The position numbers were made by a program, and so were the translations under genes. Positions 1,583 through 64,000 of a DNA stretch of 64,000 bases are shown one piece after another (the stretch's first letter is position 1; each line of letters starts with the position of its first letter). The notes under the pieces were generated by a model that was given only the letters and a program-made list of their open reading frames with translations, searched no databases and was not told where the DNA came from. This DNA is from Lunularia cruciata (Eukaryota > Streptophyta > Marchantiopsida > Lunulariales > Lunulariaceae), in contig OX419758.1 in NCBI GenBank assembly GCA_948567375.1, forward strand, positions 11,971,001-12,035,000, in the 5' to 3' direction.

Positions 1583-1679
1583 GGCAACGGTGATATCTTT
1601 GGTGGTCAGTCCAGGCTAATTTGACGCTTCATCTCTTCTCCCTTAGATTTCACCTGGTACAACGGACGAGCACCTTATC

Positions 1680-9494: not shown

Positions 9495-9591
9495 GGCAAC
9501 GGTGATATCTTTGGTGGTCAGTCCAGGCTAATTTGACGCTTCATCTCTTCTCCCTTAGATTTCACCTGGTACAACGGACGAGCACCTTATC

Positions 9592-12976: not shown

Positions 12977-12980
12977 TACC

Positions 12981-13643
12981 TGTCGTGCGTATATACATCG
13001 CTACACAACATACATCGCTGTCAACATCATACACTATAAAAGCACAACTCACACATAAGTCATACATATACTCTAAAGTGCCACAATAATCAGATTGCTT
13101 AACACTTTAAACTCAACTCAACTCAGATCAGTACTTGATCTATCACTCTATAAACTGCCAACAACTGTGCACTGATTACAGTCAAGCCACACCCACTCAA
13201 GCATAGAGAATCCAAGTGACGCTCGCCGGCCTCTGTCCACCATAGCCAGGAACTCGAAGGCTCAACATCAGAGAAGTGAGCTCTCTGGAGCTCACTTCGA
13301 AACTATACCCCCTGGACTCGAGCTAGCCCTAAAACCCTAACGGTCCCGCTGACGGCACACTCGACGGTGCAAACGGTGCAAAGTGACGGTGGGCCCCACC
13401 GTGAAGTCAGTACCCCGAACACGAAATCTAACCATCGGAAAGTAGTCCTTGAGAAACTACTAGAATAACTCTAACTACCATCACTGGAACTCCAGTGTCC
13501 GAGCATCTAGATGCGGAACTACAAATGGCATGATAGCTGTCGTGCGTATATACATCGCTACACAACATACATCGCTGTCAACATCATACACTATAAAAGC
13601 ACAACTCACACATAAGTCATACATAGACTCTAAAGTGCCACAA
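12981..13643 (-). repeat. 3' terminal repeat region of element A, LTR bracketed by 108-bp repeats
   Basis: The core at 13088-13535 matches the 5' LTR (22478-22928). It is preceded and followed by a 108-bp direct repeat at 12980-13087 and 13537-13644 that differs at one base. The polypurine run abuts the inner repeat, and the target duplication tacc abuts the outer one, so by position the 3' terminal unit is repeat-LTR-repeat, while the 5' LTR has only the core. Core ends have decayed (TATCATGCC instead of TGTCACGCC). Confidence 0.65.
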
Positions 13644-13811
13644 TCGCCCCCCTAGCTGGCGGTTAGGTCCCTCTAACTCCAGATAGCCATCTACTCTAAG
13701 TATATGGTATACCCTCTAATGGGCAAAGATCAGGAGGCCGGGTGCTATGGAGCCCCATCGTTAGTCGCCTGTCTGCAATCTATACCATATAAAGAATGAA
13801 CTAGCTATAGG

Positions 13812-16800
13812 TCAAGTACATCTAGGACATAACCACTATCCTTGAGGAACCACCGTGAGGGGAGGAGTCATACATGCCATATGCCATCCTCTCGAACAGC
13901 TATCACACACTAACATAGTAGCAGCTCCACCAGAAGAGCCACATAACATACACCTCAAGCCTGCACGTACAAGTGCCAAGCTTGGGTCCATAGTACCATC
14001 AATGTTTGGAAGGTGGCATGGCGCACAATTGTGCACATGATCCTTCCAAACAACACCATCACGTCCTTCTAACACAAGGACTCCAGATGGCAAAACCTCG
14101 CACACTCTCAAGATAGTGCGGCCTGTAGAAACATCAAGTGTCATCGGTGCTGACTGCTGTAGATATACATAGTCACCTGGATGAAATTGACGGATCGAGG
14201 GTCTATAACCTCCTCCTCGAATGGTAGCATAGCGTAAAGTATCTCTATGTTGAGCAATCGCCAAGTTCTCAAAGGCCATCGGCATCACTCTCCGAAAGAT
14301 CTCTGCACGCTGAGAACATGCGCTCATCCATACATCGGGGTCATCCAAGTCCAAAACTACAGTAGCATCTCGATGAATGGCTGCAGGTAAATCTGGATCT
14401 CGTCCATAGAGTAGAAAGTATGGAGAGAAGGATGCTAAGGAGGCTTGCCGGCTGAACCGATAGCCCATGGCCAACCAAGGTAACTGGAGATCCCAATCTC
14501 CCAAGTGGCCTCTCTGCAAACCATACTTTTGCAATCCTCTCTTCACCGTCTGAACCACTCTCTCTGCTAAGCTATCTGCCTCAGGGTGATCTCGGGATGT
14601 AGTACGATGATCAATCAAAGCCTTGTCACATAAGACCTGAAACTCTCCCAAGAACTCTGTACCCTGATCAGTCAAAACCTCAGCTGGTGCACCAAAATGA
14701 CTAAGAACTCGATCCAGGAACGAGTAAGCTGTCCCTTCACTAGACTTGTCAGGAAGTGCCACCAACTCAATCCACTTGGAGAAGTGCTCCACCATCACCA
14801 AAACATACCGATGATGTCTCACAATCAGCGGTAAAGGTCTGGCAAAGTCCAAACTCCAACGGTAACCCAATCCCATGATAGGTAATGGGTGTAACTGTGG
14901 CGTAGGAGCATTGAATGATGCTCTAACTCGGTCACAAACCACACATCTGGCAACAAACTGCTGTACCTCGGTCTGCATACCGCGCCACCAATAATGACTC
15001 TGGAGTAAGCTATATGTATGCTTTACTCCAAAATGTCCTAGCTCCTCATGAGCATGACGGACCAACTGTGGTCTCTGTGATGGAAGTGGTACTACTCGCA
15101 CTCTACCATCCTCCCATACATGCAAAAGGTGTCTACCCTCCAATCTGAACCGTCTGGCTCGCTGAAGAACACGGTCTCTCTCCTTGGCCCCAATTGTGCC
15201 ACCCACAACACCAGTGCAAAGATAGTCCATCGATAAGACATCATCATGAATGCCTCGCTGGACTGTACCAATATCTTCACTCTCTGGATCTGTGACCTCA
15301 ATAACTCCTCCTGTATGCGCTAAGAGAGATACCACCAAAGTCTCTGCAAATATACACAGAAAGGCCGATGCATGCCAACCTGGCACCATCTCCTCATCTG
15401 TCTCACCATGCCAACGTGCTCCGGTCTGATCCTGCTGGCTGGGACATGGGTTTCTACTCAACCCATCTGCATCATGGTTCACCACTCCAGGTCTGTGAAC
15501 AACCGTGAAATCATACTCCTGTAAAATCAGAGCCCATCGTGCAAGCTTCCCTGAAAGCTTGTCGGACTCCATCAACCACTTCAGCGGCTGATGATCAGTG
15601 ATGAGAGTGAAGGGGTTACCAAATAGGTAACATCGGAAATGTGCTACTGCCCAAACTGCTGCCAAGCACTCTCCCTCATATGAACTATACTTCGCCTCCG
15701 CTGAATTGTTGGAGCGACTAGCATAGGCCACCACAAACTCCTTCTCCTCATCATCATGCTGGGTGAGCACCGCTCCAAGCCCCAACATACTCCAATCAGT
15801 GTGAACCTGAAATGGTCGACCCCTGATTGGTCTCCTCAAAATAGGAGCAGATGTCAACCTCTCCTTGAGCTCTACAAAAGCTCTCTCCTGCTCATCTCCC
15901 CAACACCACTCCTGTGTAAGCTTGGTCAGCTTCGTCAAGGCCTTGGCAATGGCACTAAATCCTCTAACATAGCGGCGATAGAAGTTCGCCAACCCAAGGA
16001 ATGCTCGCACTCTGCTCACATCCGTAGGCCGAGGAATACGTGCAATAGCCTCCACCTTGGTCTGCTGAACACCAAGTCCTCCGGGGTAGATAGTGTGACC
16101 CAAATACTCAACCTGCTTGTGGAAGAACCTACACTTCCCAAGATGTAGTTTGAGTCCATGAGATCTCAACCTCTCAAACACCTCCAACAACTGTCTCTCA
16201 TGCTCCTCCACAGTAGTGCTATAGACCAAAATGTCATCAATATAACACCGAGCAAAATCCAATCCAGCTAGGATCCTATCCATGACCCTCTGGAACTCAG
16301 CAGGAGCGTTCTTCAACCCAAATGGTAAGAACCTCCACTGATATAACACATCCTTGCCGTGAGGATCAATAGCCCAAAATGTTGTCTTGGACTTATCCTC
16401 CTCCTTGATCGGCAACTGATGATATCACGCTCGTAGATCCAAAGTACTGAAGACCTTTGCATGCCCAATCGCATCAAAAATCTCCTCCGGTGTAGGCATG
16501 GCATACCGATCAGCCCTGGTCTGTCGGTTGATAGGACGGTAATCTCCACACATCCGCCTATCTGTATAGTTGCCATGCATATCCTTCTTGGCTGGCATCA
16601 CTATCGCTGATGCATACTCTCCATGTGAAATCTCCACCAAACCAGCCTCAAAAAGGTCACTACTCCGGCTCTGAATCAATGTCCTCTCCATCTCACTATA
16701 TTGATAAGGACGTCGGAAAACAGGTGTGTCGCTAGTCAGCTCAATCCGTATACCAGGTCCCTTCAGAGCACCCAAATCCTTCATACTGAAGGCAAAACAA

Positions 16801-16817
16801 CTCGTGTGACTCCTCAA
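13812..16817 (-). pseudogene. Element A pol: reverse transcriptase, RNase H, integrase, PHD finger
   Basis: RT begins near 16817 and is cut by one TGA near 16424 (a GGA glycine codon expected in LRAGYHQL). The following 859-codon frame (16415-13836) has the RT segments FLPFGLKNAP and YIDDILVYS (catalytic YIDD, residues 58-61). RNase H follows (FQVHTDWS, YEGECLAAVWA, LITDHQPLKWL), then the integrase zinc site (HEELGHFGVKH with CVVC) and a DDE core (SLDFA, LTDQGTEF, AERVVQ). The end is a PHD finger: CMLC, CDSC, HMAC, then a TAG at 13836-13838, and in the same frame beyond it W-LCPRC, which supplies the last Cys pair and ends at a TGA near 13812. A single nonsense change thus truncates a C4HC3 PHD domain. 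No chromodomain is present at the usual place. Confidence 0.9.
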
Positions 16818-16925
16818 GAACCTCCAAACCCTCCGTCTTTCCTCTCCAGTAAGCTTGGGTCCAAGATCTGGCTCCCAAGTATCCTCTGTAACTGTAGTAG
16901 GAGTGGAAGACGTACTGACTGGCTG

Positions 16926-17237
16926 CTACACTGGGCCCTTGGGAGCAATAGTGTCATGCTCCCGACCACTAGAGGTCCCAACCTCTGTGTGAAAAACTCC
17001 CTCCACTCTGGCTGCAAGCTCCATACGTCCTCTGGCTGCATCCCATGTGGACCAAGGGTGTAATCCAAGTAGCCCACGCTCACCTGGATGGACTCCAAGT
17101 AGACCACTCTCCCTAGTAGCTATTGGATGTGTCCCAAGAATACCATGTCCACTCGGTCCATCGCCCCCAGCATGTGCTTGAATCGTCTTGATCGGCACAG
17201 GGCTCACAAGTGTCCGAGTGGTGATGCCTATTAAGCG
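16926..17237 (-). other. Element A linker between methyltransferase and RT, with in-frame TAG
   Basis: The linker has short glycine/histidine-rich repeats (GLLGVHP, GLLGLHP) and ends in a TAG at 16926-16928. The RT frame resumes in the same phase directly after it. Element B has the same TAG at the same site (63768-63770), so this stop predates both insertions or is functional. Confidence 0.7.
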
Positions 17238-18216
17238 CATCCTACGCTGCTCTGCCAAACCAAGGCTCACAATCCAGGTCAAACAGTTCAGGTCCATAGC
17301 CTGACCTAACACCTGACGCTTGGATGCCTCTGACACTGCTGGAACAGCGGTAATACCGGTGCGAAAACCCATCACCCGCTCTCTCTCATCAGCATTGGGC
17401 TCCACCAACTGCTATAATTGTGAGTCCCAAACAAGTCCAGGTCCTCCCTCTCGAAAAGCATGAGAGCCTGGGAAACTCATGAGTGTGGAAAATGCAGCTC
17501 TAGGCTGTCCAACTAGGTTCACCACTGCCATAGGTGACCTATCAGCCACTACCACTGTCTGAGACTGACGCCCAACATCCAAGATATCATCAACAAGGAT
17601 GTGGTCAAGTCGCTGAATCCCATCATAACTACGTTGTAGAACCTCTCTGGGTAAAAGGTTCGTCCACCAAAGACGAAGACGATGAGCCCGTGATCCCACT
17701 CTGGCTGCATCTAACAATACAGCAGGTCCCATCCATGAATGGACCTGATGTGTACTCGCCACCACTCTAGTGCGAGAATCACCCATCAATGGAACGTTCT
17801 CCAAAAGGTAAGCTGGAGAAACAGACTGATGAACCTGGAGATGTCGGTAGTATCCGTAACATCTCCCAAAACACACTAGAATGAGGATCCTGAAGACCCA
17901 AACCGCGGCCTGCACGTGTATGTCCCTGACATGGCCATCTAGAAATCACCAAGTGAATAGGCCCATGTCTCTCTAGGTCATGCGCCCCCAGTAAGGAAAT
18001 GTCTCCTGGTAAGGCCTTCTGGTAACCTCTGACTGCTGACATCGGTAATAACTCCGGATACCGATAGGCCAAGTGTGCCACATGATGTAGAGAGACTCGC
18101 CTAGCAGTCTCATCTCTCTCTACATACAAGTACCTCTATACTCGAATACCCGCCTGTAACACCGCAGCTAGTCCGGTGCTGATCCCACCAAACAACTCCA
18201 ATAGGCATATCCCCTC
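17238..18216 (-). pseudogene. C5-cytosine DNA methyltransferase domain of element A (DNMT3-like order)
   Basis: Motifs appear in canonical order. Motif I is LELFGGISTGL (SAM binding). The catalytic loop is WPCQG, with its Cys codon at 17929-17931. Motif VI is LLENV, motif VIII is SRAHRLRLWW. A target-recognition-sized spacer with LMSFPGSHAF follows, then the motif IX/X region RERVMGF..RQVLGQAMDLNCLTWI. Enzymes of this family transfer methyl from S-adenosylmethionine to cytosine C5. The order I-IV-VI-VIII-IX-X differs from the permuted DRM arrangement and fits DNMT3 better than DRM; the PCQG wording is also seen in other C5 MTases, so the subfamily is inference. Breaks are a TAG after motif I (18136), a one-base insertion near 17857 and a TAG at 17412. 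It lies between protease and RT in the element's polyprotein. Confidence 0.88.
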
Positions 18217-22477: not shown

Positions 22478-22928
22478 TGTAATCAGATTGCTTAACACTT
22501 TCAACTCAACTCAACTCAGATCAGTACTTGATCTGTCACTCTATAAACTGCCAACAACTGGGCACTGATTACAGTCAAGCCACACCCACTCAAGCATAGA
22601 GAATCCAGGTGACGCTCGCCGGCCTCTGTCCACCATAGCCAGGAACTCGAAGGCTCAACATCAAAGAAGTGAGCTCTCTGGAGCTCACTTCGAAACTATA
22701 CCCCCTGGACTCGAGCTAGCCCTGAAACCCTAACGGTCCCGCTGACGGCACACTCGACGGTGCAAACGGTGCAAAGTGACGGTGGGCCCCACCGTGAAGT
22801 CAATACCCCGAACACAAAATCTAACCATCGGAAAGTAGTCCTTGAGAAACTGCTAGAATAACTCTAACTACCATCACTGGAACTCTAGTGTCCGAGCATC
22901 TAGATGCGGAACTACAAATGGCGTGACA
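22478..22928 (-). repeat. 5' LTR of element A
   Basis: This is a 451-bp repeat that reads on the minus strand TGTCACGCC...CTGATTACA. It matches the 5' LTR of element B (57808-58257) and the core of A's 3' terminal region. The target duplication tacc follows at 22929-22932. Confidence 0.9.
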
Positions 22929-23130
22929 TACCTAATCCCATAGGGAAATTTCCATGGACTAGATTTCTTTTGACTATATAATAAAGAAAGTGCTTCTTTG
23001 GGATACCAAAGTTTGAAGGTGAAACTTGTGTTTTTTCTTATATGTTTCTCTACTATGCTATGCTCGGAATATTATAAAAACTTTTCATTTAACTTGGATT
23101 GCATTAAAAGAAAACGGTTGAAAATAACTT
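22929..23130. other. AT-rich flank between element A and relic F
   Basis: No gene is seen. It may be the left part of the 5' LTR of F, but no clear match to the 3' LTR of F was found before about 23130. Confidence 0.35.
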
Positions 23131-37325: not shown

Positions 37326-37343
37326 AAGACTCCAAGGAAGAAG

Positions 37344-41670: not shown

Positions 41671-41720
41671 AGAGACTTTCACTTTGAGGACAAAGTGAAA
41701 ACTTAGTCCGGGGGTAAATG

Positions 41721-43928: not shown

Positions 43929-44620
43929 TATGAGCCGGCCTGTCTCTCACTCAGGATGAACCTCTGATGGCTATTATGGTACCGCACCATGGACTAAGAA
44001 GGCAAGGAACCCCAACTCCATCATACTCCTCCAAGGCTAACACTCCAAGACTCAAGACATTGCTCACTAGAGAACTCTATGAGAGAGAGATAGTTGCAAA
44101 TGAAAGGATGATGAGTACCTCCTCACCCCTTGTTTATATACTTGTGAAATAGTTACGTACCAAAGTTACTAATTACCGTAGTAACTCAAGTTACTAGACT
44201 AAAAGTCAAGTAAAGTCAAAAAGTAGAAAGGAATATCCATTCACATGGGCATATTCCCCTAAGCATGTGGTCTTATCTTGACCCAACCACTAAGTCAAGG
44301 ATTCCTTCACATGGGCTATCCTTGGACTAAAGAAGAATCCAAAACAAAAAGGCTTGCGGGCCCAAGAGTTCTCAACTCTTTCCTCAAAGCCAAACACCTA
44401 GGAATAATACCAAGTCAACACACTAAAATCCAAAATAGTGGTGCTCATCTTTTCTACTTCCACTAAAGTAAGGTCCCATCTATCTTAGCTATGACTAACT
44501 TTAGCTAACCATGACTAATATAGAACCATCCTTTATCTCTATATAAATAATATCTCTTAAGTACTTGTAATACGAAGCTAAATATCACAATACCACACAC
44601 ATGCACAAATGGGTGTTACA
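43929..44620 (-). repeat. 3' LTR of C2
   Basis: 692 bp, minus strand TGTAACACCC...GGCTCATA, the last bases altered from CACA by one change. Contains a TATA-like tatataaa region near 44540 on the plus strand. Matches 51071-51762 with about five differences. Confidence 0.9.
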
Positions 44621-44668
44621 TTTACCCCTGGACTAAGTTTTCACTTTGTCCTCAAAGTGAAGGTCTCT

Positions 44669-46000: not shown

Positions 46001-49000
46001 TGGCTCATCTCCATCATGATCATAGGCTCTAGATAAAAATCAGCATTTGCATGTTTCTTTCCTGGCCTATCTTCAATGGTGTAGTCATACTCAGACAAGA
46101 GTATCATCCACCTTGCTAGTCTCCCTTCAACATAAGGCTTGTTGAAGATGTACTTCAAAGCCTTGTGATCCGTGACAATGGTGGCTTTCCCTCCAATCAA
46201 GTAGTGTCTAAACTTCTTGAGACCAAAGATCACTGCCAACCCTTCTCTCTCCGTGACAAAGTAGTTCTTCTCTGCTGAAACCATCTGCCTACTAGCATAA
46301 GCTATTGGATGATCATGCCCATCTTGGTCTAATTGACTAAGAGTGCATCCTATAGCTACATTAGAAGCATCAATGTAGAGGATGAAAGGTTTACTCCAAT
46401 CAGGTTTAGCAAGAATTGGAGCTACAACAAGGGATTGCTTGAGCTCCTCAAAAGCTTTGAGAGCCTCCTTGTCTTCCAAAATCACCATGTAATCTACACC
46501 CTTCTTCATGTAGATGGTCAATGCATAAGCCTTGTTGGAAAATGAGAAGATGAACCTCCTATAGTACCCAACCATCCCCAAGAATTGGCGTAACTTTGTC
46601 AAGCTTGAAGGGAATGGAAGGTCTGAGATTTTCCTCACCTTCTCAAGATCAACTGCTATTCCATCCTTGGAGATGATATGCCCCAAAAGTAGACCTTCTT
46701 CACATCCAAAAATGCACTTCTTTGGGTTCAGTGATGCATTTGCCTCATCCAAGCGTTGCAAGACTTTGATTAGGTGCTCAAAGTGCTCCTCCTTGCTCCC
46801 ATAGACACAAAAGTCATCAATGAAATCTCTCACAAATTTCCCAATGAAAGGTTCAAATACCTTGTTCATGAACCGTTGGAATGTGGCTAGAGCATTGCAA
46901 AGCCCAAAAGGCATGACCTTGAAAGCGTAAGTTCCCCAAGGTGTGGTGAATGTGTTGAGTTGTTGATGCTCTGGTGCAATCTTGATTTGGTTATATCCAC
47001 TATAACCATCTCCAAAACTGTACCTCTCATGACCTGCAACCTCCTCCAAGATCTCATCAATGAATGGCAATGGGTAGTAGTCCTTCTTGGTAACAGCATT
47101 GAGCTTCTTGTAATCCACACATACCCGAAGCTTGCCATTTTTTTTCTTCACAATGACAATTGGAGACACCCATTCTGAATTCTCCACCTCAAAGATAAAT
47201 CCAGCCTCCTTGAGCTTATCAATCTCCTCCTTCACAACCAAAGATATTGGTGGGCTAATGTGACGTTGCTTTTGGCGAACTGGTCTTGCATGTGACTCCA
47301 CCTCTATCTTGTGCTCCTCCAAGGTGACTTCCTTCAAATCCTTGTAACTAAAAGCAAACACATGGATGAACTTGCGGAAAATCTCCTCAAATCTCACCTT
47401 CTCTTCCTTGGTAACATTTGGGCCATACTTGAGGGTAGATAACCTTCTCTCTACCTCCTCAAGTGTCAATGGTGATTTATCTAGGTCCTTCAAAACCTCT
47501 GGCTTAGGTGCAAAATCCATAGCACACAAAGGATACACATCTGAATCAGATTCAGATTCATCCTCCTCCATGGAAGTCTCCTCTTCCATGCTTGTGTCCA
47601 CACCTGAAGCTCCTTCTTCAGAATCTGATTCCCAATAATCAGAAGATGGGGTATCTGAATGTGAAGTGTTGGTGGTGTTAGTCACAGGAACAGTGACTCT
47701 ATGGTTTGATGGCCCAATCCTCAAGTACCCTTTGTGCCATCGATCAGTTGTGCGTGCTGCTCTCAACCATGGCCTCCCAAGAAGTAAGTCATAGCTTGAA
47801 TCCTTCAAGACTTGGAAAGTCATGAGATTTTGAACTCCCATAACTGAAACTACCATCTTATCCATCACCCCTACTGGTCGAACTTGTTGCTTGTTTGCCA
47901 TGCTCACCACAAATGTTGAAGCTCTTGAGGGTATCATACCCAACTTCTTCATCAACCTTTCTGACATGGCATTCACTGCTGATCCTCCATCAACCAATGC
48001 ATCCTTGATGTTGTGACCATTCACTCTCACATCAATCTTGGAGGCATATTCACAAGCCTCCCATGGTGCTGGCTTGGCATCCACCACCCCCATTGATACT
48101 GGAACTTTTGCCTTCTTCTTCTTCTTGCTCCTTGTAGAACTCAAATCACCTCTAAGCTCCTTTCTCAAGGTAGGGTTCAAAGCAATTAATTGGCCCACTG
48201 TGATGTTAGCCTTGTGACTACCAACATCCTCCAACACATTGTAGTTCCATTGTTGCTTTGAGATCAAGAAGTCCTCCATCCCCAACTTCTTCCTTGGAGT
48301 CTTTTTTGTTGATGGTGTTGAGGTGCGAGTGCTCCTAGTTGACATAGGAGTATCCTTGCTTGAAGTAAATCCTTGAGAAGAGTGAACATCCTCTGCAAAA
48401 CGAGCTCTCTTCTTCTCTTGTGCCAAAAGCTCCAAATTAAGACCCTTGGAGTTTGAGCACTCTCCCTTCTCATACTTGCTCTCAACCACATCTATGGATG
48501 CTATCCCCTTACCTTTGTTGGGATTAGGAGCCACTTGGGTTTCACTACCTCCCTCTTTCCTTCTATTGGCTCTCTCATAACCCCTTCCTCCATGGTAAGT
48601 GGAATTTGGGCAATTCCTTTGGATATGGCCTCTTCCTCCACAACCAAAACAATTTCTATCATTGAAATTGTTGGCTGGTTGGCCTCCTCTATATGGATAG
48701 TTTCCATAACTCCTAGGCCCTCTCCCTACATTCTGATCCACCTCTCTCTTCTCCCATAGTTGCACCACATTGATCTTGAGATCCGCAAGTTGTTCTGTGA
48801 TGGTTTGGAATGGATCTTTTGGTGGAGGTGCAAGAACTGGAGCAACTACTACTTGTGGTGCAACCGTTGTCACCAAAGTATCAGAAATTCCACCATACTT
48901 GTAGCCTTGAGGAGGATGCACAACCTCCTTCACCACCAAATCACTCTCATCCCCTTCCAAACTCTCCTCCATACGAATTGCGATCTTGATAGCTTCAACC

Positions 49001-49413
49001 TTGGAAGAAGGTTTCTCATATCTCACCTTGCTTCTAATTTGTGGTCTCAATCCTCCCACAAAATTCTTGGTGAGCATGGCCCCTATGCCAATCATTATAG
49101 TTTCCACATCATCCCCACCCTTCCTAAACACTATGCGAAATCTGGACTCCAACTTTTCCACTCTTTCCACATAGACCCTCACTTTCTCTCCATCTCCTTG
49201 CTTGAGAAATGTAACCTCACTCATCAATCTCTCATAACTCTCATCAGGAAGAAAGTTCTCAATGAGTGCTGAAGTCAAAGTCTCCCAAGACTCCTCTTCC
49301 CCCTCTCTCCTCTCTCCTCTCTCTCTTTTGGTATTCTGACTCATACCATGTAAGTGCTGCATCCTCAAAGAAATCTGGTAATAATGAGGCCCACTCATTC
49401 TTCCTCCTCTCAT
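45967..49413 (-). pseudogene. C2 gag-protease-RT-RNase H polyprotein
   Basis: 1148 codons open. Order: gag C-terminal half (SYERLMSEVTFLKQGDGEKV, FVGGLRPQIRSKVRYEKPSS), knuckle CFGCGGRGHIQRNC, linker, retropepsin (DALVDGGSAVNAM, closing SYDLLLGRPWLRAA), acidic Ser/Glu stretch, RT (MPFGLCNALATF, FIDDFCVYG), RNase H (ILYIDASNVAIG, EREGLAVIFGLK, ATIVTDHKALKY). After HANAD a one-base deletion shifts the frame (C3 retains HANADLLSRAY). The 5' end is also frame-shifted relative to the gag start at 49501, within a GA-rich run. The protease triad reads DGG rather than DSG, as in C1 and C3. Confidence 0.88.
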
Positions 49414-49501
49414 TGTTTCCTATGCAAGCTCTCTTGAAGTCTCTCACAAAGGCCTCCACATCTTCTCCATCCTTGCCAAAGAAAACCGGAAGTTTCCCCA
49501 T
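49259..49501 (-). pseudogene. C2 gag N-terminus
   Basis: Begins MGKLPVFFGKDGEDVEAFVR and runs through FKRACIGNNERRKNEWASLL and DAALTWYE, a typical Ty3 gag start. The frame is lost in a gagaga-type run near 49290-49340 where the main polyprotein frame takes over, so one slippage-type indel separates the two. The ATG at 49501 is the probable gag start. Confidence 0.8.
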
Positions 49502-51766: not shown

Positions 51767-53203
51767 ACCAAATTTGGCGATGAGATAGATCCTTTTGCGT
51801 CTCGAGATAGACTAGAGGTTTGTAGTCTGTCTCTACTACAAATGCCTTCTCGCCCAAGTAGTGCTTCCAATGCTTGGTTGCTATAACGATGGCCAGCTCT
51901 TCTTGTTTTGTGGTGTGGTAGTTGCGCTCTGCCGGTAACAACTTTCGAGAGAAATATGCAATTGGATGCCATCCGTCATGCCACTCTTGTTGTAGGACTG
52001 CTCCTATTGCTACGCCTGATGCATCTGTAGCCAACTTGATTGGACGTTTTGGGTCATACCACATCAAGATTGGTGCATGTAGCAAGGCAGCCTTCAATTC
52101 TTGAAAGGCCAACTCTTGTGCAGTTCCCCACGTCCACTTCTTCCCCTTGCCAAGTAGTGCCATTAAAGGTTGTGCAACCTTGGAGAAGTCCTTGACAAAT
52201 CTATGATAGAATCCCGTCAACCCCAAGAAGCTCTTAAGTTGAGTCTGATCTTCTGGGGCACTCCATTTTTGAATGACCTCTTTTTTATCTATCAATACTT
52301 GAATGCCCTTTGCACTTACTCTATGTCCTAAGTAGTCTACTTTAGACTTGCCAAACTCACACTTTGAGATTTTGGCGTACAATTGATTCTGTCTTAGAAT
52401 CTGGAGGACCTCTCATAGATGTTGTTTGTGTTCTGTCATCGTGCTACTATATACTAAAATATCATCCAAGAAGACGATAACAGACTTATCCAAGTATGGA
52501 TGAAATATGTCATTCATTAGACTCATGAAAGTGGCAGGCGCATTGGTGAGGCCAAAAGGCATCACAAGATACTCAAAGTGGCCATACCTGGTTCGAAAGG
52601 CAGTTTTGTACACATCCTCCTCTGCAATTCGGATTTGATTGTAACCGCTCCGCAAGTCCAGTTTGGTGAAGTATCTCACTCCATGGAGTTGATCAAATAG
52701 GTCATCCATGCGAGGTAAGGGGTATTTGTTCTTCATTGTTTGCTGATTTAGACCCCGATAGTCAATGCACATGCGCATTGTACCATCCTTCTTCTTCACA
52801 AACAAGACAAGGGCCCCATATGGCGATACGCTAGGTTGGATGAACCCTTTCTGTAGCATCTCCTCAATTTGAGTCTTACACTCCTCCAACTCATGAGGTG
52901 ATAGACGATATGGGGCCTTACAAGGAGGTGTCTTCCCCGGGAGTGTCTCAATTTTGTGATCTACTCGCCTTTTAGGTGGTAATCCTAAGGGTAGATCATC
53001 AAGAAAGACATCTTGGAACTCATCCACCACATCTTTCAATTTCTCAAGAATTTGTCCAGCGAGTTGTGCACTCTGGACTTCTCTTATTAGACCCATAAAA
53101 CATCTATCGGTCTTACAGACAGTTGTCGTCCCTATGACATATAGAGGCAGTTTCTGCCTGTGTGATTTTTCTTTAACCCCGATGATTGACCATTGGTGGG
53201 TTC
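51767..53203 (-). pseudogene. D: protease end, reverse transcriptase and RNase H start
   Basis: Minus strand: [13 protein letters not shown] (protease/RT linker), [11 protein letters not shown]-like [16 protein letters not shown] with [12 protein letters not shown] and [12 protein letters not shown], one TGA at about 52413 where CGA is expected (KQHL*EVLQILR), CEFGKSKVDYLGH, and RNase H with LATDASGVAIGAVLQ and ELAIVIATKHWKHYL. Text ends at LSHRQIWWA where C2 is inserted. Apart from the one stop, the RT is well preserved. Confidence 0.85.
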
Positions 53204-53867
53204 TGTGAGCCGGCCTGTCTCTCACTCAGGATGAACCTCTGATGGCTATTATGGTACCGTACCATGGACTAAGAAGGCAAGGAACCCAAACTCCATCATA
53301 CTCCTCCAAGGCTAACACTCCAAGACTCAAGACATTGCTCACTAGAGAACTCTATGAGAGAGAGATAGTTGCAAATGAAAGGATGATGAATACCTCTTCA
53401 CCCCTTGTTTATATACTTGTCAAATAGTAACGTACCAAAGTTACTAATTACCGTAGTAACTCAAGTTATTAGGCTAAAAGTCAAGTAAAGTCAAAAAGTA
53501 GAAAGGAATATCCATTCACATGGACATATTCCACTAGCATGTGATCCTATCTTGACCCAACCACTAAGTCAAGGATTCCTTCACATGGGCTATCCTTGGA
53601 CTATAGAAGAATCCAAAACAAAAAGGCTTGCGGGCCCAAGAGTTCTCAACTCTTTCCTCAAAGCCAAGCACCTAGGAATAATACCAAGTCAACACACTAG
53701 AATCCAAAATAGTGGTGCTCATCTTTTCTACCTCCTCTAAAGTAAGGTCCCTTCTATCTTAGCTATGACTAACTCTAGCTAATCATGACTAATTTTGAAC
53801 CATCCCTTATCTCTAAATATCAAGCTAAATATCACAATACCACACACATGCACAAATGGGTGTTACA
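53204..53867 (-). repeat. 3' LTR of C3
   Basis: About 664 bp, minus strand tgtaacaccc...ggctcaca, with a short internal deletion (text near atatcaagct at 53818) relative to the LTRs of C2. It is more diverged than the C2 LTR pair. Confidence 0.88.
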
Positions 53868-53915
53868 TTTACCCCCAAACTAAGTTTTCACTTTGTCCTC
53901 AAAGTGAAGGTTTCT

Positions 53916-56900
53916 CTACCTTCTACGGTACATCTTCACCTTATCATGGTTAATCCTATCAAAGTGTCTTCCTCCCAACTCCTTGAGATCATAGGTGTAA
54001 TTGCCCCACACCTTCTCTACTATGAAAGGTCCAAAGTACTTAGGCAAAAACTTCTTTTGCACTCTCTTGAATCGAATGGAGTCAAACAACATTACCCAAT
54101 CACCTTCCTTGAAAGGCTCCACCTTCTTCTTGCATTGCCTCTTGTCATAGCTCTCCTTTTGTTTCCTTTGGGCTTGCTCCACTCGAACCATAGCAACTGC
54201 TCTTGCCTCTTCCAACTCCATGAGTTGATCCTTCCTTGACTTCTCTGCATCACTCCCTTGTGCTTTCTTCAATCTCCTATGAATGCTTTGGAAGGTAGGA
54301 AGATCAAAGTGAATAGGTAAGGAAGACTCAATACCATACACCAATTGAAATGGAGAATATCTGGTGGAAGTCTTCATGGTTGTCCTATACTCCCACAAAA
54401 CTGCATGAATCCTCTTGTCCCAATGATGTTTAGCCCCCTCCATTTCTGCATCTTTGGCCAACATCATGCACAAGGTCTGATTGGTTTTCTCTGCCAAGCC
54501 ATTGGAATTTGGCTTATAGGATGTAGTTACTCTATGTGTGATAGAGAAATGTCGTAGCATGGCTGTAGTAATGCTTCCTGTAAACTCTCCTCCTCTATCA
54601 GAAACCAACTCCAAAGGGCATCCAAACCTAGTGATAATGCGTTCATAAAGAAATCTACCCACTTCATCTTCATTCTTGTCCCTCAATGGTCTACCTCAAC
54701 CCACTTGGTAAGGTACTTAGTAACTACCACAATGTACCGATTGTTCCTTGGGGTTCTATTGAGAGGTCCTACAAAATCAATTCCCCACTTCTCAAAAGGT
54801 CCTAGCAATGGAATTGATCTAAGTGGCGGAGTGGATGTAAACTTTCTAGCAAAAGCTTGACAAACATGACAAGTTTTGCAATAATCAAGACAATCCTTGA
54901 AATTCCGTCTCCAATGGTAACCTGCATCTAGAATCTTGAAAGCAGTCACCTTTCTTGCAAAGTGTCCTCCACATACTAAACCTTCATGAAACTCCTTTAT
55001 GAGTAGGATAGACTCTTCCTTACCCACTGCTCTTTGAAGTAGACCATCTTCTCCTTGGTGAAAAAGAATATCCTCCACCATTGTGTAAGGTCTAGATCTT
55101 GCTCCAAGGGCCTTCCTCTCCCTAGCATGCATCCCTTCTGGATAGTTACCTCTTGTCACAAAATCCACAATCTCCTTGTACTCCATTGGAATCTCTTGAG
55201 TGACTGAGATTGTCATGAGCTCCTCATCCGGGAAGGAATCATCTACTGGCTCATCTCCATCATGATCATAGGCTCTAGATAACAAATCAGCATTTGCATG
55301 TTTCTTTCCTGGCCTATCCTCAATTGTGTAGTCATACTCAGACAAGAGTATCATCCACCTTGCTAGTCTCCCTTCAACATTAGGCTTGTTGAAGATGTAC
55401 TTCAAAGCCTTGTGATCCGTGACAATTGTGGCTTTCCCTCCAATCAAGTAGTGTCTAAACTTCTTGAGACCAAAGATCATTGCCAACCCTTCTCTCTCTG
55501 CTGAAACCATCTGCCTACTAGCATAAGCTATTGGATGATCATGCCCATCTTGGTCTAATTGACTAAGAGTGCATCCTATAGCTACATTAGAAGCATCAAT
55601 GTAGAGGATGAAAGGCTTACTCCAATCAGGTTTAGCAAGAATTGGAGCTACAACAAGGGATTGCTTGAGCTCCTCAAAAGCTTTGAGAGCCTCCTTGTCT
55701 TCCAAAATCACCATGTAATCTACACCCTTCTTCATGTAGATGGTCAATACATAAGCCTTGTTGGAAAATGAGAAGATGAACCTCCTATAGTACCCAACCA
55801 TTCCCAAGAATTGGCGTAACTTTGTCAAGCTTGAAGGGAATGGAAGGTCTGAGATTTTCCTCACCTTCTCAGGATCAACTGCTATTCCATCCTTGGAGAT
55901 GATGTGCCCCAAAAGTAGACCTTCTTCACATCCAAAAATGCACTTCTCTGGGTTCAGTGATGCATTTGCCTCATCCAAGCGTTGCAAGACTTTGATTAGG
56001 TGCTCAAAGTGCTCCTCCTTGCTCCCATAGACACAAAAGTCATCAATGAAATCTCTCACAAATTTCCCAATGAAAGGTTCAAATACCTTGTTCATGAACC
56101 GTTGGAATGTGGCTGGAGCATTGCAAAGCCCAAAAGGCATGACCTTGAAAGCGTAAGTTCCCCAAGGTGTGGTGAATGTGGTGAGTTGTTGATGCTCTGG
56201 TGCAATCTTGATTTGGTTATATCCACTATAACCATCTCCTAAACTGTACCTCTCATGACCTGCAACCTCCTCCAAGATCTCATCAATGAATGGCAATGGG
56301 TAGTAGTTCTTCTTAGTAACAACATTGAGCTTCTTGTAATCCACACATACCCGAAGCTTGCCATTCTTTTTCTTCACAATGACAATTGGAGACACCCATT
56401 TTGAATTCTCCATCTCAAAGATAAATCCAGCCTCCTTGAGCTTATCAATCTCCTCCTTCACAACCAAAGATATTGGTGGGTTAATGCGACGTTGCTTTTG
56501 GCGGATTGGTCTTGCATGTGACTCCACCTCTATCTTGTGCTCCTCCAAGGTGACTTCCTTCAAATCCTTGTAACTAAAAGCAAACACATGGATGAACTTG
56601 CGGAAAATCTCCTCAAATCTCACCTTCTCCTACTTGGTAACATTTGGGCCATACTTGAGGGTAGATAACCTTCTCTCTACCTCCTCAAGTGTCAATGGTG
56701 ATTTATCTAGGTCCTTCAAAACCTCAGGCTTAGGTGAAAAATCCATAGCACACAAAGGATACACATCTGAATCAGATTCAGATTCATCCTCCTCCGTGGA
56801 AGTCTCCTCTTCCATGCTTGTGTCCACACCTGAAGCTCCTTCTTCAGAATCTGATTCCCAATAATCAAAAGATGGGGTATCTGAATGTGAAGTGTTGGTG

Positions 56901-57370
56901 GTGTTAGTCACAGGAACAGTGACTCTATGGTTTGATGGCCCAATCCTCAAGTACCCTTTGTGCCATCGATCAGTTGTGCGTGCTGCTCTCAACCATGGCC
57001 TCCCAAGAAGTAAGTCATAGCTTGAACCCTTCAAGACTTGGAAAGTCATGAGATTTTGAACTCCCATAATTGAAACTACCACCTTATCCATCACCCCTAC
57101 TGGTTGAACTTGTTGCTTGTTTGCCATGCTCACCACAAATGTTGAAGCTCTTGAGGGTATCATACCCAACTTCTTCATCAACCTTTCTGACATGGCATTC
57201 ACTGCTGATCCTCCATGAACCAATGCATCCTTGATGTTGTGACCATTCACTCTCACATCAATCTTGGAGGCATATTCACAAGCCTCCCATGGTGTTGGCT
57301 TGGCATCCACCACCCCCATTGATACTGGAACTTTTGCCTTCTTCTTCTTCTTGCTCCTTGTAGAACTCAA
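53916..57370 (-). pseudogene. C3 protease, RT, RNase H and integrase
   Basis: Protease region 57370-56630 (DALVHGGSAVNAM: the catalytic Asp is now His), stop TAG at about 56627. Then a 646-codon frame (56623-54683) with RT (MPFGLCNAPATF, FIDDFCVYG), RNase H and the integrase zinc site. A 21-bp in-frame loss removes seven residues before EREGLA in RNase H. A one-base deletion near 54686 (in KWVEARPL) shifts into 54686-53916, which holds LVSDRGGEF and GLAEKTNQ and ends KMYRRR. Confidence 0.88.
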
Positions 57371-57764
57371 AAGGAATATCCATTCACATGGGCATATTCC
57401 CCTAAGCATGTGGTCTTATCTTGACCCAACCACTAAGTCAAGGATTCCTTCAGAGGGGCTATCCTTGGACTAAAGAAGAATCCAAAACAAAAAGGCTTGC
57501 GGGCCCAAGAGTTCTCAACTCTTTCCTCAAAGCCAAACACCTAGGAATAATACCAAGTCAACACACTAAAATCCAAAATAGTGGTGCTCATCTTTTCTAC
57601 TTCCTCTAAAGTAAAGTCCCATCTATCTTAGCTATGACTAACTTTAGCTAACCATGACTAATATAGAACCATCCTTTATCTCTATATAAATAATATCTCT
57701 TAAGTACTTGTAATATCAAGCTAAATATCACAATACCACATATATGCACAAATGGGTGTTACAG
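57371..57764 (-). repeat. Partial 5' LTR of C3
   Basis: Matches the LTR part from aaggaatatccattcacatg to the tgttaca end. The rest of the LTR was removed with the adjacent leader and gag. Confidence 0.85.
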
Positions 57765-57807: not shown

Positions 57808-58257
57808 TGTCACGCCATTTGTAGTTCCGCATCTAGATGCTTGGACACTGGAGTTCCAGTGATGGTAGTTAGAGTTATTCTAGCTGTTTCTCAGGGACTA
57901 CTTTCCGACGGTTAGATTTTGTGTTCAGGGTACTGACTTCACGGTGGGGCCCACCGTCACTTTGCACCGTTTGCACCGTCGAGTGTGCCGTCAGCGGGAC
58001 CGTTAGGGTTTCAGGGCTAGCTCGAGTCCAGGGGGTATAGTTTCGAAGTGAGCTCCAGAGAGCTCACTTCTCTGATGTTGAGCCTTCGAGTTCCTTGCTA
58101 TGGTGGACAGAGGCCGGCGAGCGTCACCTGGATTCTCTATGCTTGAGTGGGTGTGGCTTGACTGTAATCAGTGTCCAGTTGTTGGCAGTTTATAGAGTCA
58201 CAGATCAAGTACTGATCTGAGTTGAGTTGAGTTGAAGTGTTAAGCAATCTGATTACA
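57808..58257 (+). repeat. 5' LTR of element B
   Basis: 450 bp, TGTCACGCC...CTGATTACA, highly similar to 22478-22928. It is followed by tcagagaagtg, as in A. The 108-bp side repeats seen at A's 3' end are absent here. Confidence 0.92.
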
Positions 58258-59537: not shown

Positions 59538-60896
59538 TTGCGGTTGCAGTTGGTGGTTCGGGTTTGCTATTGTAGTTACGTGGTCACGACGGAGTTCTTT
59601 GGAGATTCTAGAGGAGTTAGCCCTGCAGTACGCAGTGGGTTTACTCGGAGTGGTGCTCGGTATCAGCCTGTATCTCAGGTTCTAGTGAGGGAGGAGATTG
59701 ACTCTGAGTTGGAGTTTGACACAGGAGCTGATTCAGTTGAGAGTGCACTTGGTGTGTCCGCACCGTTGTTGTGGGACATGGACGAGATTTATGGGGCCTC
59801 CAAAGGCCCTAGGCGTTACTCTGGTACAGTGGGTACCATTGAGTTGGATGACTTCATCCAGGAGTTTGATAGTTGGTGTGATTTGCAACAGATGCGGATC
59901 CCGACTTTGTTCACACCCTTCATGGCATGGAAGGGGTTGTTTCAGCACTTGGAGGGTCCACCGATGGACGACTACCATGAGTTCAGGAGAGCTCATTTGG
60001 AGGAGATTGAGTTATGGAGACAGTATTGGTCTCCACACTATGTCTCCATCACTTCAGGTTCGGTGGCCAGGAGTAGGTTGGCTGTACCTACGAGTTCTAG
60101 CTCGAGTAGTGTTGGTGGAGCTAGTGGAGGTGCACTAGCTGGAGATAGTGCTACTACGAGTGGAGGTACCGCTGCAGGAGGTGGTGTGGTACCGGGGTTT
60201 AACCCCATGGTGGAGTTCTTCCTATGTTTGAGGCAGAACTACCAGGGAGTGCGGACTGACAAGCTAAGGAGCTTGCAGGAGTTCCAGCGGAAGGATGGAG
60301 AGAGCCTACACGAGGCATACACTCGCATGAGGCGGCTGATCAGTTTCACTCAGGGAGTTACTGAGGCCCAGGCAGTCCAGTTTTGGTATGGGATACTGGA
60401 CAGGGAGTTGCGACGTAGAGTTCGTGATGCTACGTTGTTGCAGGCTACTTCGCCCACTTTGGCAGTAGTCTTTGGTTTGGCTGAGCGTATTGAGCTCAAC
60501 ATGGTGGAGGAGAGAGTGGTGACATCTGGATTTGGTAGGGAGACCTCATCCACGGTTGTGACTTCTTCTAGAGTGCAGCAGAGTGCACCACGCCCAGTTG
60601 GTTTTCGAGGACAGGGTGGACAGCCCAGATCCTATGGAGCGAGTGGAGGGCCTAGTGGAGTTAGACCCTTACCATCATTTTTGGGTCAGCAGCAGCCAAT
60701 GAGTGGTGGTGTTGCTTGTTGGACTTGTGGTGGACCTCACCATAGGAGAGAGTGTACTCAGGGCAGCGGACCTGATACCTCTGGTGCATCACAGCCAGCA
60801 TAGAGGCAGTGTGAGCACTGCCATAGATTTGGTCATACTAGTGACCGGTGTTTTGACCTACACCCGGAGTTACGGAGTGGTAGGGCTGCTATGACA
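59538..60896 (+). pseudogene. Element B gag with two zinc knuckles
   Basis: Gag core as in A (LDDFIQEFDSWCDLQQ, MAWKGLFQHLEG, SLHEAYTRMRRLISF). Knuckles CWTCGGPHHRREC and CEHCHRFGHTSDRC are separated by a TAG at 60801 where A has CAG. Otherwise the frame is open. The frame begins without an ATG (the upstream triplets are TTG/GTG); the first ATG in frame is near 59779, within the conserved part, so the true start may be lost, spliced or non-AUG. Confidence 0.85.
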
Positions 60897-62480
60897 GGTA
60901 GTAGAGGAGCTCCAGTTCATGGAGGACGAGGTGGTAGAGGTGGTGGTAGAGGATCTACACCTAGTAGGGGTGCAGTACCTGCCCTTACTTCAAACACAAC
61001 TATGGCTACTCGGATTGAGCAGTTGGAGCAGAGATTGGCTAGTATGGCTATTGCTCATAGGAGATCAGATTCTGGTGCTGAGGCTTCCACCTCATATGCT
61101 GGTGATAGAGATGCTTTGGACTTCATGTGCGGAGCAGCACAGGTGGATGCATCTGCAGCAGTGACTAGGAGTGCAGTACGTGCTCCAGAGCCTAGAGGAG
61201 CATCAGTGGAGTTGGACCCACAGAGAGGAGAGGTTGGGAGACAGGTCAGACTTCCCCAGTCTTTCACGCTATCTGAGGCATTGCAGACGACATCCATGGT
61301 TCCTAGACGTCCCAGTGCAGGTGTGGTAGGTGGTGATGGAGTACCTGATGGAGTACCTACTAGTCAGCCACCTGCTACTACACAGACTGAGTCTAGCATG
61401 ATGTTGGGGGCGGCTCAGCTGATTATGCGGCATCCTTTATTTTCAGCCAGTGATATGTTTACATTGGGAGTGGACCCAGCCCCAGTGTTCCGGTTGGCTG
61501 CCACGTTGTGTGAGAGTAGGGATGGTGCAATTCCTACTACTAGAGCAGAGGTGGTTGGTAGTGGAGCTGACTTGGTTGAGGAGCATGGGATCCGTTCAGC
61601 GACCAGTGGTTTATGGCAGGCAGCAGCGGCTAGACTGGAGGAGTTGCCAGCTAGACCGGCCTTTGAGAGAGCGCGGTTTACACCTGGTGTTATCCTATTG
61701 GATAACCAGAGGGGGATCTTTCGTTTGGTAGGACCTTCAGGGAAGGTCTATACACCACAAAGAGTCTTGTTAGACTCTGGTGCGCAGCCCCTTATGTTGG
61801 GGAAGGCTGCAGTTGTTGGTCTGGAGTTACGGAAGACCGATGTGGAGAGGTGTCCATTTCAGATCCAGACATCTCTTGGTGGTGGTTCGACACAGTACAT
61901 CACACGTGGAGAGCTTGTTGTCCAGGTTCAGCCTGGTCATCTGACTGATAGCTTGATGGTGAGAGCTCAGGCTATTGCGACGATAGTTGAGTCCTATGAT
62001 GTGCTAGTTGGGGGAGCAGTGTTATACCCTATGGGTTTCAGTATTGACTATTGGGAGGAGAAAGCCTCTTATAGACCTGGTTGGCAGTCTGGTGAGGGAC
62101 GGGTATGTCACCTACCAGTACGCTTTAGTAGTGGCAGTCTTGGCTCACTACAGTCCGGGACCATGGCAGCATCAGTTTTGGCTTTCAGCGGTGCAGTTAC
62201 TTGGCCTGGTGACTTGTTGGAGGGGAACGCCCATGCAGAGGATACTCCAGTACCAGAGGAGATCACTCGGCTATGGAGTACGAGTGGGATTGTTCCATCC
62301 ACCTTGGATGTTCCATTGTGGAGTTCAGAGGAGGCATTGCAGCAGCATGCAGATCAGTTGGTGCAGCAGGCTTGGAGTGGAGCCTTCATACCATCAGGGG
62401 ATGAATGTGAGGATGAGCCTCCAGAGGCGATTGCTTTGACACCTCTGGATACCACACTCATTGCTTGGCAGTATCCAGTA
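60897..62480 (+). CDS. Element B protease region (part of polyprotein frame)
   Basis: Open frame following gag. Gly/Arg-rich stretch (GGRGGRGGGRG), a disordered Ser/Pro/Ala region, then a retropepsin with an intact DSG site (RVLLDSGAQPLMLGKAAV) and a closing YDVLVGGAVLYPMGF. An extension of about 120 residues with WSSEEALQQHADQLVQQAW and acidic DECEDEPPEA links it to the methyltransferase. In retroelements the protease acts as a dimer to cut the polyprotein. No stop falls in this part, but the surrounding frame is broken. Confidence 0.8.
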
Positions 62481-63461
62481 GAGGGGATATGTCTATTAGA
62501 GTTGTTTGGTGGGATCAGCACCGGACTAGCTGCGGTGTTACAGGCGGGTATCCGAGTACAGAGGTACTTGTATGTAGAGAGAGATGAGACTGCTAGGCGA
62601 GTCTCTCTACATCATGTGGCACACTTGGCCTATCGGTATCCGGAGTAATTACCGATGTCAGCAGTCAGAGGTTACCAGAAGGCCTTACCAGGAGACATTT
62701 CCTTACTGGGGGCGCATGACCTAGAGAGACATGGGCCTATTCACTTGGTGATTTCTGGATGGCCATGTCAGGGACATACACGTGCGGGCCGCGGTTTGGG
62801 TCTTCAGGATCCTCGTTCTGGTGTGTTTTGGGAGATGTTACGGATACTACGACATCTCCAGGTTCATCAGTCTATTTCTCCAGCTTACCTTTTGGAGAAC
62901 GTTCTATTGATGGGTGATTCTCGCACTAGAGTGGTGGCGAGTACACATCAGGTCCATTCTTGGATGGGACCTGCTGTATTGTTAGATGCAGCCAGAGTGG
63001 GATCACGGGCTCATCGTCTTCGTCTTTGGTGGACAAACCTCTTACCCAGAGAGGTTCTACAGCGTGCTTATGATGGGATTCAGTGACTGGACCACATTCT
63101 TGTTGATGATATCTTGGATGTTGGGCGTCAGTCTCAGACAGTGGTAGTGGCTGATAGGTCACCCATGGCAGTGGTGAACCTAGTTGGACAGCCTAGAGCT
63201 GCATTTCCCACACTCATGAGTTTCCCAGGCTCTCATGCTTTTTGAGAGGGAGGACCTGGACTTGTTTGGGACTCACAGTTACAACAGTTGGTGGAGCCCA
63301 ATGCTGATGAGAGAGAGCGGGCGATGGGTTTTCGCACCGGTATTACCGCTGTTCCAGCAATGTCAGAGGCATCCAGGCATCAGGTGTTAGGTCAAGCTAT
63401 GGACCTGAACTGTTTGACCTGGATTGTGAGCCTTGGTTTGGCAGAGCAGCGTAGGATGCGC
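62481..63461 (+). pseudogene. C5-cytosine DNA methyltransferase domain of element B (DNMT3-like order)
   Basis: About 327 codons. Motif I is LLELFGGISTGL. The catalytic loop is GWPCQG (Cys codon 62766-62768). Motif VI is LLENV (GAG at 62895), motif VIII is SRAHRLRLWW at about 63004-63033, followed by a spacer with LMSFPGSHAF, and a motif IX/X region RERAMGF..HQVLGQAMDLNCLTWI. All catalytic elements are present as text. Four stops lie inside (62646, 63084, 63243 and, just after the domain, 63516). A shares the same layout, so the domain belongs to the family and is not a chance insertion in one copy. Expected activity is SAM-dependent cytosine methylation; whether it acts on element cDNA, RNA-DNA hybrids or host chromatin is unknown. 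Confidence 0.9.
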
Positions 63462-64000
63462 TTGATAGGCATCACCACTCGGACACTTGTGAGCCCTGTG
63501 CCTATCGAGACGATTTAGGCACATGCTGGGGGCGATGGACCGAGTGGACATGGTATTCTTGGGACACATCCAGTAGCTACTAAGGAGAGTGGTCTACTTG
63601 GAGTCCATCCAGGTGAGCGTGGGCTACTTGGATTACACCCTTGGTCCACATGGGATGCAGCCAGAGGACGTATGGAGCTTGCAGCCAGAGTGGAGGGAGT
63701 TTTTCACACAGAGGTTGGGACCTCTAGTGGTCGGGAGCATGACACCATTGCTCCCAAGGGCCCAGTGTAGCAGCCAGTCAGTACGTCTTCCACTCCTACT
63801 ACAGTTACATAGGATACTTCGGAGCCAGATCTTGGACCCAAGCTTACTGGAGAGGAAAGACGGAGGGTTTGGAGGTTCTTGAGGAGTCACACGAGTTGTT
63901 TTGCCTTCAGTATGAAGGATTTGGGTGCTCTGAAGGGACCTGGTATACGGATTGAGCTGACTAGCGACACACCTATTTTCTGACGTCCTTATCGATATAG
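63462..64000 (+). pseudogene. Element B linker and start of RT
   Basis: The linker has GLLGVHP and GLLGLHP repeats as in A, then TAG at 63768 (shared with A), TAG at 63810 (GAG in A) and the RT start (SCFAFSMKDLGALKGPGIRI) with a TGA at 63981 where A has CGA. The window ends inside RT. Confidence 0.85.

Follow-up and report, generated by a model that had tools for sequence, protein, structure and literature searches.

A predicted DNMT3-type cytosine methyltransferase ahead of a readthrough-type stop in a land-plant Ty3 retrotransposon family

Hosts commonly silence transposons by cytosine methylation. Among the closest described systems in which a retrotransposon itself carries a methyltransferase (MT) is KnitGypsy-Dnmt3 of Klebsormidium nitens, an element with Gypsy domains and a DIRS-type repeat structure (de Mendoza et al. 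2018, PMC5890265). Its MT gave no methylation in yeast, a test that its authors call inconclusive, and the same authors treat K. nitens as a separate acquisition; the SymbioDIRS MT of Symbiodinium produced CG methylation in yeast (PMC5890265). A further paper, citing that of 2018, also places some DNMT3 members inside retrotransposons in streptophytes and dinoflagellates (PMC12344493). According to the accessible text of the 2018 paper, a DNMT3 inside a Ty3 polyprotein is a kind of element already published (PMC5890265). Within the open PMC listings, no paper was found on a bryophyte branch of DNMT-bearing Ty3 elements or on a PHD finger carried by one of them, and split repeats combined with a DDE integrase were found nowhere beyond the legend in the accessible part of the 2018 paper (PMC5890265).

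The window analysed here, a stretch of 64,000 nucleotides from Lunularia cruciata, holds two copies of such an element, A and B. They share 96.1% identity across 6,245 aligned bases and are oppositely oriented, with about 35 kb between them. Their features are as follows.

57808 to past the window's right end, plus strand: copy B, whole element
57808..58255, plus strand: A1, left terminal repeat of copy B, beginning TGTCACGCC
60717..60851, plus strand: two Gag zinc knuckles of copy B, CWTCGGPHHRREC and CEHCHRFGHTSDRC, motifs found by eye
60801-60803, plus strand: gag stop separating the two zinc knuckles of copy B
61767..62039, plus strand: aspartic-protease-like stretch of copy B, LLDSGAQ ... 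YPMGF, motif found by eye
62481..63461, plus strand: predicted DNMT3-type MT domain of copy B (motifs, Pfam, DNMT3A match)
62646 (TAA), 63084 (TGA) and 63243 (TGA), plus strand: in-frame stops in the MT of copy B
63768..63776, plus strand: TAG CAG CCA stop at the MT-RT boundary of copy B
22928-12981, minus strand: copy A, whole element
22929..22932, minus strand: target-site duplication GGTA, left of copy A
22480..22928, minus strand: A1, left terminal repeat of copy A
17238..18216, minus strand: MT domain of copy A, the same domain as in copy B
18136-18138 and 17412-17414, minus strand: stops in the MT of copy A, which also has a frameshift near 17847
16920..16928, minus strand: TAG CAG CCA stop of copy A, at the same place as in copy B
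15513..16925, minus strand: reverse transcriptase (RT) and RNase H of copy A (Pfam RVT_1, RT_RNaseH), with an in-frame stop at 16425-16427
14583..15080, minus strand: integrase zinc-binding and rve (DDE) domains of copy A (Pfam)
13854..13952, minus strand: C-terminal PHD finger of copy A, a stop preceding its last zinc ligands
13646..13653, minus strand: polypurine-like tract AGGGGGGC of copy A, directly before B1
13538..13644, minus strand: B1 repeat of copy A
13087..13535, minus strand: A2 repeat of copy A, after the 2-nt spacer GC, with 11 mismatches in 447 against A1
12981..13087, minus strand: B2 repeat, right terminus of copy A (...CGACA), with 1 mismatch in 108 against B1
12977..12980, minus strand: target-site duplication GGTA, right of copy A

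The element order reads Gag-PR-MT-[UAG]-RT-RH-IN-PHD, as predicted from these motif and Pfam assignments. A Pfam protease (PR) match was absent from copy B's ORF, and Asp_protease stayed below the cut-off in P0131 and in L017, a relative described below. Both copies are broken. The MT of copy B shares its reading frame with gag, protease and the start of RT; the single frame through gag, protease and RT that had been ascribed to this copy thus holds as far as the start of RT, interrupted by the three MT stops and the one in gag. Elsewhere in the window there is a direct duplication on the plus strand (1522-4307 and 9434-12291, spaced by about 7.9 kb, with blocks 92-98% identical), inside which lies an uncharacterised ORF (1647-2303 / 9559-10086), the first without a Pfam match. 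Another Ty3 family is present in several copies (35758-41721, plus; 43922-49419 and 53197-57669, minus), and no MT was seen in its two scanned ORFs (35758-37362 and 45967-49419).

In the translation of copy B, LFGGISTG, WPCQG, LLENV, SRAHRLR and VLGQAMDLNCLTWI follow one another in this order at 62481-63461 (plus strand) and the same domain recurs in copy A, in agreement with the preliminary description, which had named these motifs in both. Searched with X in place of its stops, the copy B domain matches PF00145 at E 1.8e-7 (31.3 bits, cut-off 22); the proposed search with the DNA_methylase model thus gave a significant match, and not the absence of one that would have spoken against the assignment. 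The MT of L017 matches the same model at E 6.8e-12. L017 is a 9,285-base contig filed under the cyanobacterial assembly AVDCRST_MAG81, whose two ends carry an identical stretch of 127 bases, and is probably a repeated eukaryote element that was assembled as a circle, a eukaryotic contamination of a cyanobacterial bin. The best solved relative of the domain is human DNMT3A (1.9e-12 by sequence, 2.5e-26 by profile), and 188 database proteins match the copy B MT out of 8000 candidates scored (best E 3.5e-170), a similarity that by these scores is beyond chance. An AlphaFold model of the L017 MT domain reached a pLDDT of 87 and a pTM of 0.88, and when it was compared with PDB folds the best 50 of 187 matches (E 0.001 or less) were all DNMT3 entries. 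The window family and the bryophyte rows both show the motif order I-IV-VI-VIII-X, without the DRM-type rearrangement. Copies A and B are accordingly best described as carrying a predicted DNMT3-type cytosine methyltransferase, encoded between protease and RT, and the claim of a Ty3 family with a complete enzyme at that position is borne out by Pfam PF00145, the DNMT3A match and the PDB folds.

To place these two copies in their family, the host assembly (566 Mb) was searched with PF00145, and 123 matches were scored out of 2,161 first-look candidates. Inspection of 64 of them (60 sampled plus L019-L022) identified 60 as copies of this element and four as something else; the 60 sampled copies came from a list ordered by quality of the MT match. 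A 24-base pattern spanning the MT-RT stop, in which any triplet was allowed at the codon itself, has 615 exact matches genome-wide and its reversed control has zero, and the B1-NN-A2 repeat junction has 669 exact genome-wide matches. The host genome contains hundreds of copies of the element.

At the homologous site, 58 of 60 sampled copies carry a stop and 54 of 60 the sequence UAG-CARYYA, and since copies of one family share recent ancestry these are not 58 independent observations, the independent one being L017. In the first sample every one of the 40 copies had the stop, in the reading frame of the MT end (TAG + CARYYA in 37/40); it was present in 18/20 of the second (TAG + CARYYA in 17/20), which was counted without a frame check and in which 5 of the 18 distances from MT end to stop imply a small frameshifting indel. 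The codon is TAG in 57 of the 58 copies and TAA in one; at 100 of the 615 pattern matches it is TAG 97 times, TAA twice and GAG once. In L017 an open Gag-PR-MT frame is followed by TAG CAA TCA and then by RT-RH-IN-PHD, directly onward in the same frame. Fourteen database Gag-PR-MT proteins (1252-1451 aa) terminate beyond the MT and show no RT match; in six, the alignment extends to the final residue of the L017 frame. Not every relative has the stop: in K. nitens P0207, in P0144 and in others, MT and RT are continuous. UAG-CARYYA is, in the accessible part of the source, the type I readthrough signal of tobamoviruses (PMC5382211), and the features by which tobamovirus-type readthrough is recognised at the sequence level, UAG plus CARYYA with an open frame beyond, are found here. 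We infer that UAG-CARYYA may act as a leaky, readthrough-type stop in this family. The preliminary description was silent on this stop, on the split direct repeats with their 4-bp target duplications and on the PHD finger.

We propose, with a probability of roughly 0.7, that the window family belongs, as a land-plant branch, to an old Ty3 lineage of the green algae and plants that includes KnitGypsy-Dnmt3, and that its MT is a particle protein methylating the element's own DNA. Most ribosomes would halt at the UAG and release Gag-PR-MT and a few would read through into the full polyprotein, making the MT an abundant particle protein at the Gag level rather than a rare Pol enzyme. Because it is placed with Gag and protease before the leaky-type stop, the MT would be packed in quantity, and its natural substrate would therefore be the element's own new DNA. 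It may methylate the new double-stranded element DNA in, or on leaving, the particle. The insert would then enter the chromosome pre-marked, and would be tolerated like any ordinary stretch of methylated DNA. The PHD finger, judging from the domain itself, may steer the integrase to histone-H3-marked chromatin, and the integrase would open a circle at the joined-ends site B1-GC-A2.

Decay of the inserted copies bears on where the enzyme might act. Across host copies, C>T changes occur in 191 of 2,520 CG site-copies (7.6%), 247 of 4,760 CHG site-copies (5.2%) and 144 of 12,670 CHH site-copies, with other changes at 238 of 38,325. The high CG and CHG decay is as expected in a plant that methylates both contexts and fits ordinary host silencing; it also argues against a simple shield, in that inserted copies still decay like ordinary methylated transposons. 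The same methylation-type decay could be taken to favour an MT that acts in trans, methylating host chromatin or integrated copies and so tempering the element or altering local silencing. However, ordinary host maintenance methylation would, to our general knowledge, yield CG and CHG decay anyway, and the position of the MT on the Gag side of the readthrough-type stop points to a role in the particle. Action in trans is an option discussed in the accessible part of de Mendoza et al. (PMC5890265), and we regard it as unlikely compared with a particle protein directed at the element's own DNA.

The lineage is broad. The protein searches each scored about 8,000 candidates: relatives in Calypogeia, Sphagnum, Marchantia and Riccia appear among 120 of the 188 proteins listed for the MT, the L017 protein matched 34 proteins, and K. 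nitens, Closterium, Haematococcus and Astrephomene appear among 120 of the 1,938 listed for RT-IN-PHD. Relatives also occur in metagenomes, and among named organisms the liverwort Calypogeia fissa has the closest RT (79%). When 119 new RT-IN-PHD proteins were scanned with a family profile, the MT lay before RT in 10, including K. nitens P0207 and Closterium P0240, and between RNase H and integrase (RH-MT-IN) in 46, including Astrephomene P0264, which Pfam had missed. None was visible by this profile in the other 63, which include the Haematococcus protein and one more from K. nitens; these 63 are not counted as lacking it, since many start at RT and a stop before RT may split the polyprotein.

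In the MT trees the RH-MT-IN order forms one clade nested among MT-RT rows (SH-aLRT 98 in the quick tree, 98/97 in the careful one), a clade that also holds a few rows of unknown order. The RT tree gives the corresponding clade a support of 99, with five of its 41 rows lacking a visible MT. A single branch separates all retrotransposon MTs from the cellular DNMT3/DRM and phage rows (97 quick, 92/72 careful); the cellular genes are represented by three rows, and the root was placed by choice at the phage rows, which form their own side of a branch. The quick tree kept 77 of the 135 MT matches (out of 210) that were long enough, with short domains and near-copies omitted; the careful tree has 55 rows and excludes long branches as well as half of the RH-MT-IN rows. 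P0207 and L017 are collinear (35% over PR-MT, 47% over RT-IN), and in both MT and RT trees P0207 lies nearer the RH-MT-IN rows than the bryophyte rows, within one wider clade; P0237, a K. nitens protein without a visible MT, falls with the bryophytes in the RT tree.

Because the RH-MT-IN clade nests inside the MT-RT order, the simplest reading of these trees would be one capture of a DNMT3-like domain and then one relocation, in which the domain left its place ahead of RT for one between RNase H and integrase. Alternatively, the bryophyte, K. nitens and algal RH-MT-IN elements may have taken up their MTs independently from DNMT3-like genes. This would agree with the two insertion points, the 92/72 support of the single retrotransposon-MT clade, the position of P0207 in both trees, where the algal RH-MT-IN rows are closer to it than the bryophyte rows are, and the count of K. 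nitens as its own acquisition in the accessible part of the published paper (PMC5890265). We consider such repeated capture quite unlikely, given that the RH-MT-IN rows form one clade within MT-RT rows in both the MT and the RT tree and that K. nitens is collinear over PR-MT-RT-IN. By the collinearity and the tree positions of P0207, the window element is probably a relative of KnitGypsy-Dnmt3 within one lineage, and not its closest kin. The suggestion that this was a further case beside the charophyte one stands as regards a land-plant family; its independence was not borne out, P0207 being collinear and within the one wider clade. Nor does a recent capture from this host's own DNMT3 agree with the trees, in which the retrotransposon MTs form a separate clade. 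The host's own DNMT3-like gene (L019) and its DRM gene (L020) were identified by eye from motifs. A recent viral origin of the MT was rejected after an IMG/VR scan gave 16 relatives at 27-53% identity, and a recent bacterial one after a scan of GTDB contigs in which, among the matches listed, L017 stood at 50% and one bacterial locus at 33%.

Conservation of the active site was considered next to the possibility that the DNMT fold serves RNA, or is a nucleic-acid-binding or structural part of Gag, and is not a DNA methylase. Among 148 aligned rows the catalytic Cys is present in 136 of the 140 having a letter at that position, and the Glu of ENV in 138 of 144 rows of the relatives alignment. 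Motif IV reads ECQ or ECK, not PCQ, in 34 of 141 aligned relatives (P0144, P0150, P0153, P0196 and 30 others), and 29 of these 34 rows have the RH-MT-IN order; relatives with Glu-Cys in motif IV are perhaps inactive enzymes. A role other than DNA methylation could draw on these substitutions and on the K. nitens enzyme, which lacked activity in yeast in the accessible account (PMC5890265). However, the window family and the bryophyte rows retain PCQ, ENV and RxR, and the catalytic site of the host's own DNMT3-like gene likewise reads PCQ (PCN in human DNMT3A). For the window family we therefore think such a role improbable, and keep to a DNA methylase.

The UAG might also be the plain end of Gag-PR-MT, with RT made by splicing or internal entry and without readthrough. 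The Marchantia gene model P0143 could be cited for this, as it passes the site with a joint that differs from that of P0140. Against it, RT continues in the same frame immediately after the stop, and the next six bases fit CARYYA in two lineages whose synonymous sites are saturated. We give this reading as little credence as the preceding one, and retain a stop that is probably leaky.

As regards the integrity of the MT, the genome search for intact copies returned an MT frame uninterrupted over 365 codons in 12 of 51 ungapped rows (50 sampled copies and copy B), with copies A and B themselves both broken. Shared variants within the family are mostly C>T/G>A (122/139), and because of this the comparison of private with shared variants was restricted to the remaining changes. 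With 35 rows, private variants were N87:S22 and shared ones N7:S10 (p 0.0017), and the shifted frames gave p 1.0 (+1) and 0.51 (+2). With 47 rows, the figures were N78:S25 and N9:S11 (p 0.013), and p 1.0 in both shifted frames. Copy B is among the rows of these tests, and an identity cut of 0.93 dropped two of 37 rows from the first and four of 51 from the second. An earlier version with all variants gave p 0.0037, but frame +1 also reached p 0.044, and pairwise dN/dS within the family (0.41 vs 0.47 in the frame +1 control) showed no separation and is uninformative. L017 compared with each of nine uninterrupted host copies has 51-52% amino-acid identity, and identities at codon positions 1/2/3 of about 0.60/0.70/0.37; at four-fold sites identity is 0.25-0.28, the chance level, indicating saturation. 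On the strength of the within-family variant test and the L017 comparison, the MT domain appears to have been under purifying selection while the element was active. That A and B are an accidental chimera, decayed and functionless copies of one capture event, would suit the broken state of both, but is very improbable when many copies and many species carry the domain, in two domain orders, with synonymous sites saturated and the selection frame-specific.

The ends of the element have an unusual arrangement. Copy A is laid out as TG..A1 - coding - B1 - GC - A2 - B2..CA, with GGTA on both outer sides. Target duplications of 4 bp were found in all six copies with both ends seen, namely copy A and five of ten fetched copies, whose perfect duplications outside A1 and B2 are ACTT, TCTT, CCTA, AATA and CCTT; in the remaining five of the ten, one end was truncated or beyond the stretch taken. 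On the 3' side, ten of ten sampled copies have B-A, and nine have a second B, whole or in part. The same repeat junction is contained in L017 (ACGACAGCTGTCACG). In one locus (L074, 1128-2501) a second B-NN-A-B array stands about 90 bases past the first B2, as if from an adjoining second insertion or an end product. No primer-binding site could be recognised with confidence. The polypurine tract is located before B1 and not before A2, and hence the ends set by reverse transcription and those used by the integrase appear to be offset. A tyrosine recombinase was not among the Pfam matches of the scanned ORFs, which include an rve integrase instead. The B1-GC-A2 junction reads as two joined integrase ends and suggests insertion from a circle opened there. 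The full chain, in which a Ty3 lineage delivers a DNMT3 at Gag level via a leaky stop and a pre-methylated two-repeat circle is opened by a DDE integrase at the palindromic site ACGACA-GC-TGTCACG, where B1 meets A2, with a 4-bp duplication, is possible but doubtful as a whole. Split direct repeats together with a DDE integrase and target duplications raise the question of whether the integrase of a Ty3-type element can act on circular DNA, contrary to the standard view of retroviruses.

An old, abundant lineage that carries the methylating enzyme itself would reverse the usual relation between host and transposon, and this can be tested. Relatives in Marchantia and Sphagnum make the lineage accessible in well-studied bryophytes, and this family should be borne in mind wherever a bryophyte gene catalogue contains additional DNA methyltransferases.

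To conclude, we compare the family with known systems. Cellular DNMT3 has its fold and motifs in common with the element MT; cellular DNMT3/DRM genes come without RT, whereas the element MT groups in a clade of its own and lacks the rearrangement of DRM. Elements of the DIRS/Ngaro type likewise have split direct repeats, and to our knowledge make no target duplication; DIRS uses a tyrosine recombinase, whereas the window family has an rve integrase and 4-bp target duplications. SymbioDIRS-Dnmt3 and SymbioLINE-Dnmt are also retrotransposon-encoded DNMTs, the former with the same A-coding-B-A-B repeats (PMC5890265). The Symbiodinium elements are, by the available description on which this comparison is made, DIRS with a tyrosine recombinase or LINEs, in contrast to the DDE integrase of the window family. 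KnitGypsy-Dnmt3, of which P0207 is presumably a representative, completes the comparison. As far as the accessible text and, for the repeats, a figure legend describe it, KnitGypsy-Dnmt3 has a Ty3/Gypsy Pol with a DNMT3-type domain, A-coding-B-A-B repeats and an MT under purifying selection, as the window family appears to have, and the order PR-MT-RT-RH-IN of the window family fits this lineage. The window family differs in its UAG-CARYYA stop at the MT-RT boundary, where P0207 is continuous, and in its land-plant host, its hundreds of copies and its demonstrated 4-bp target duplications.
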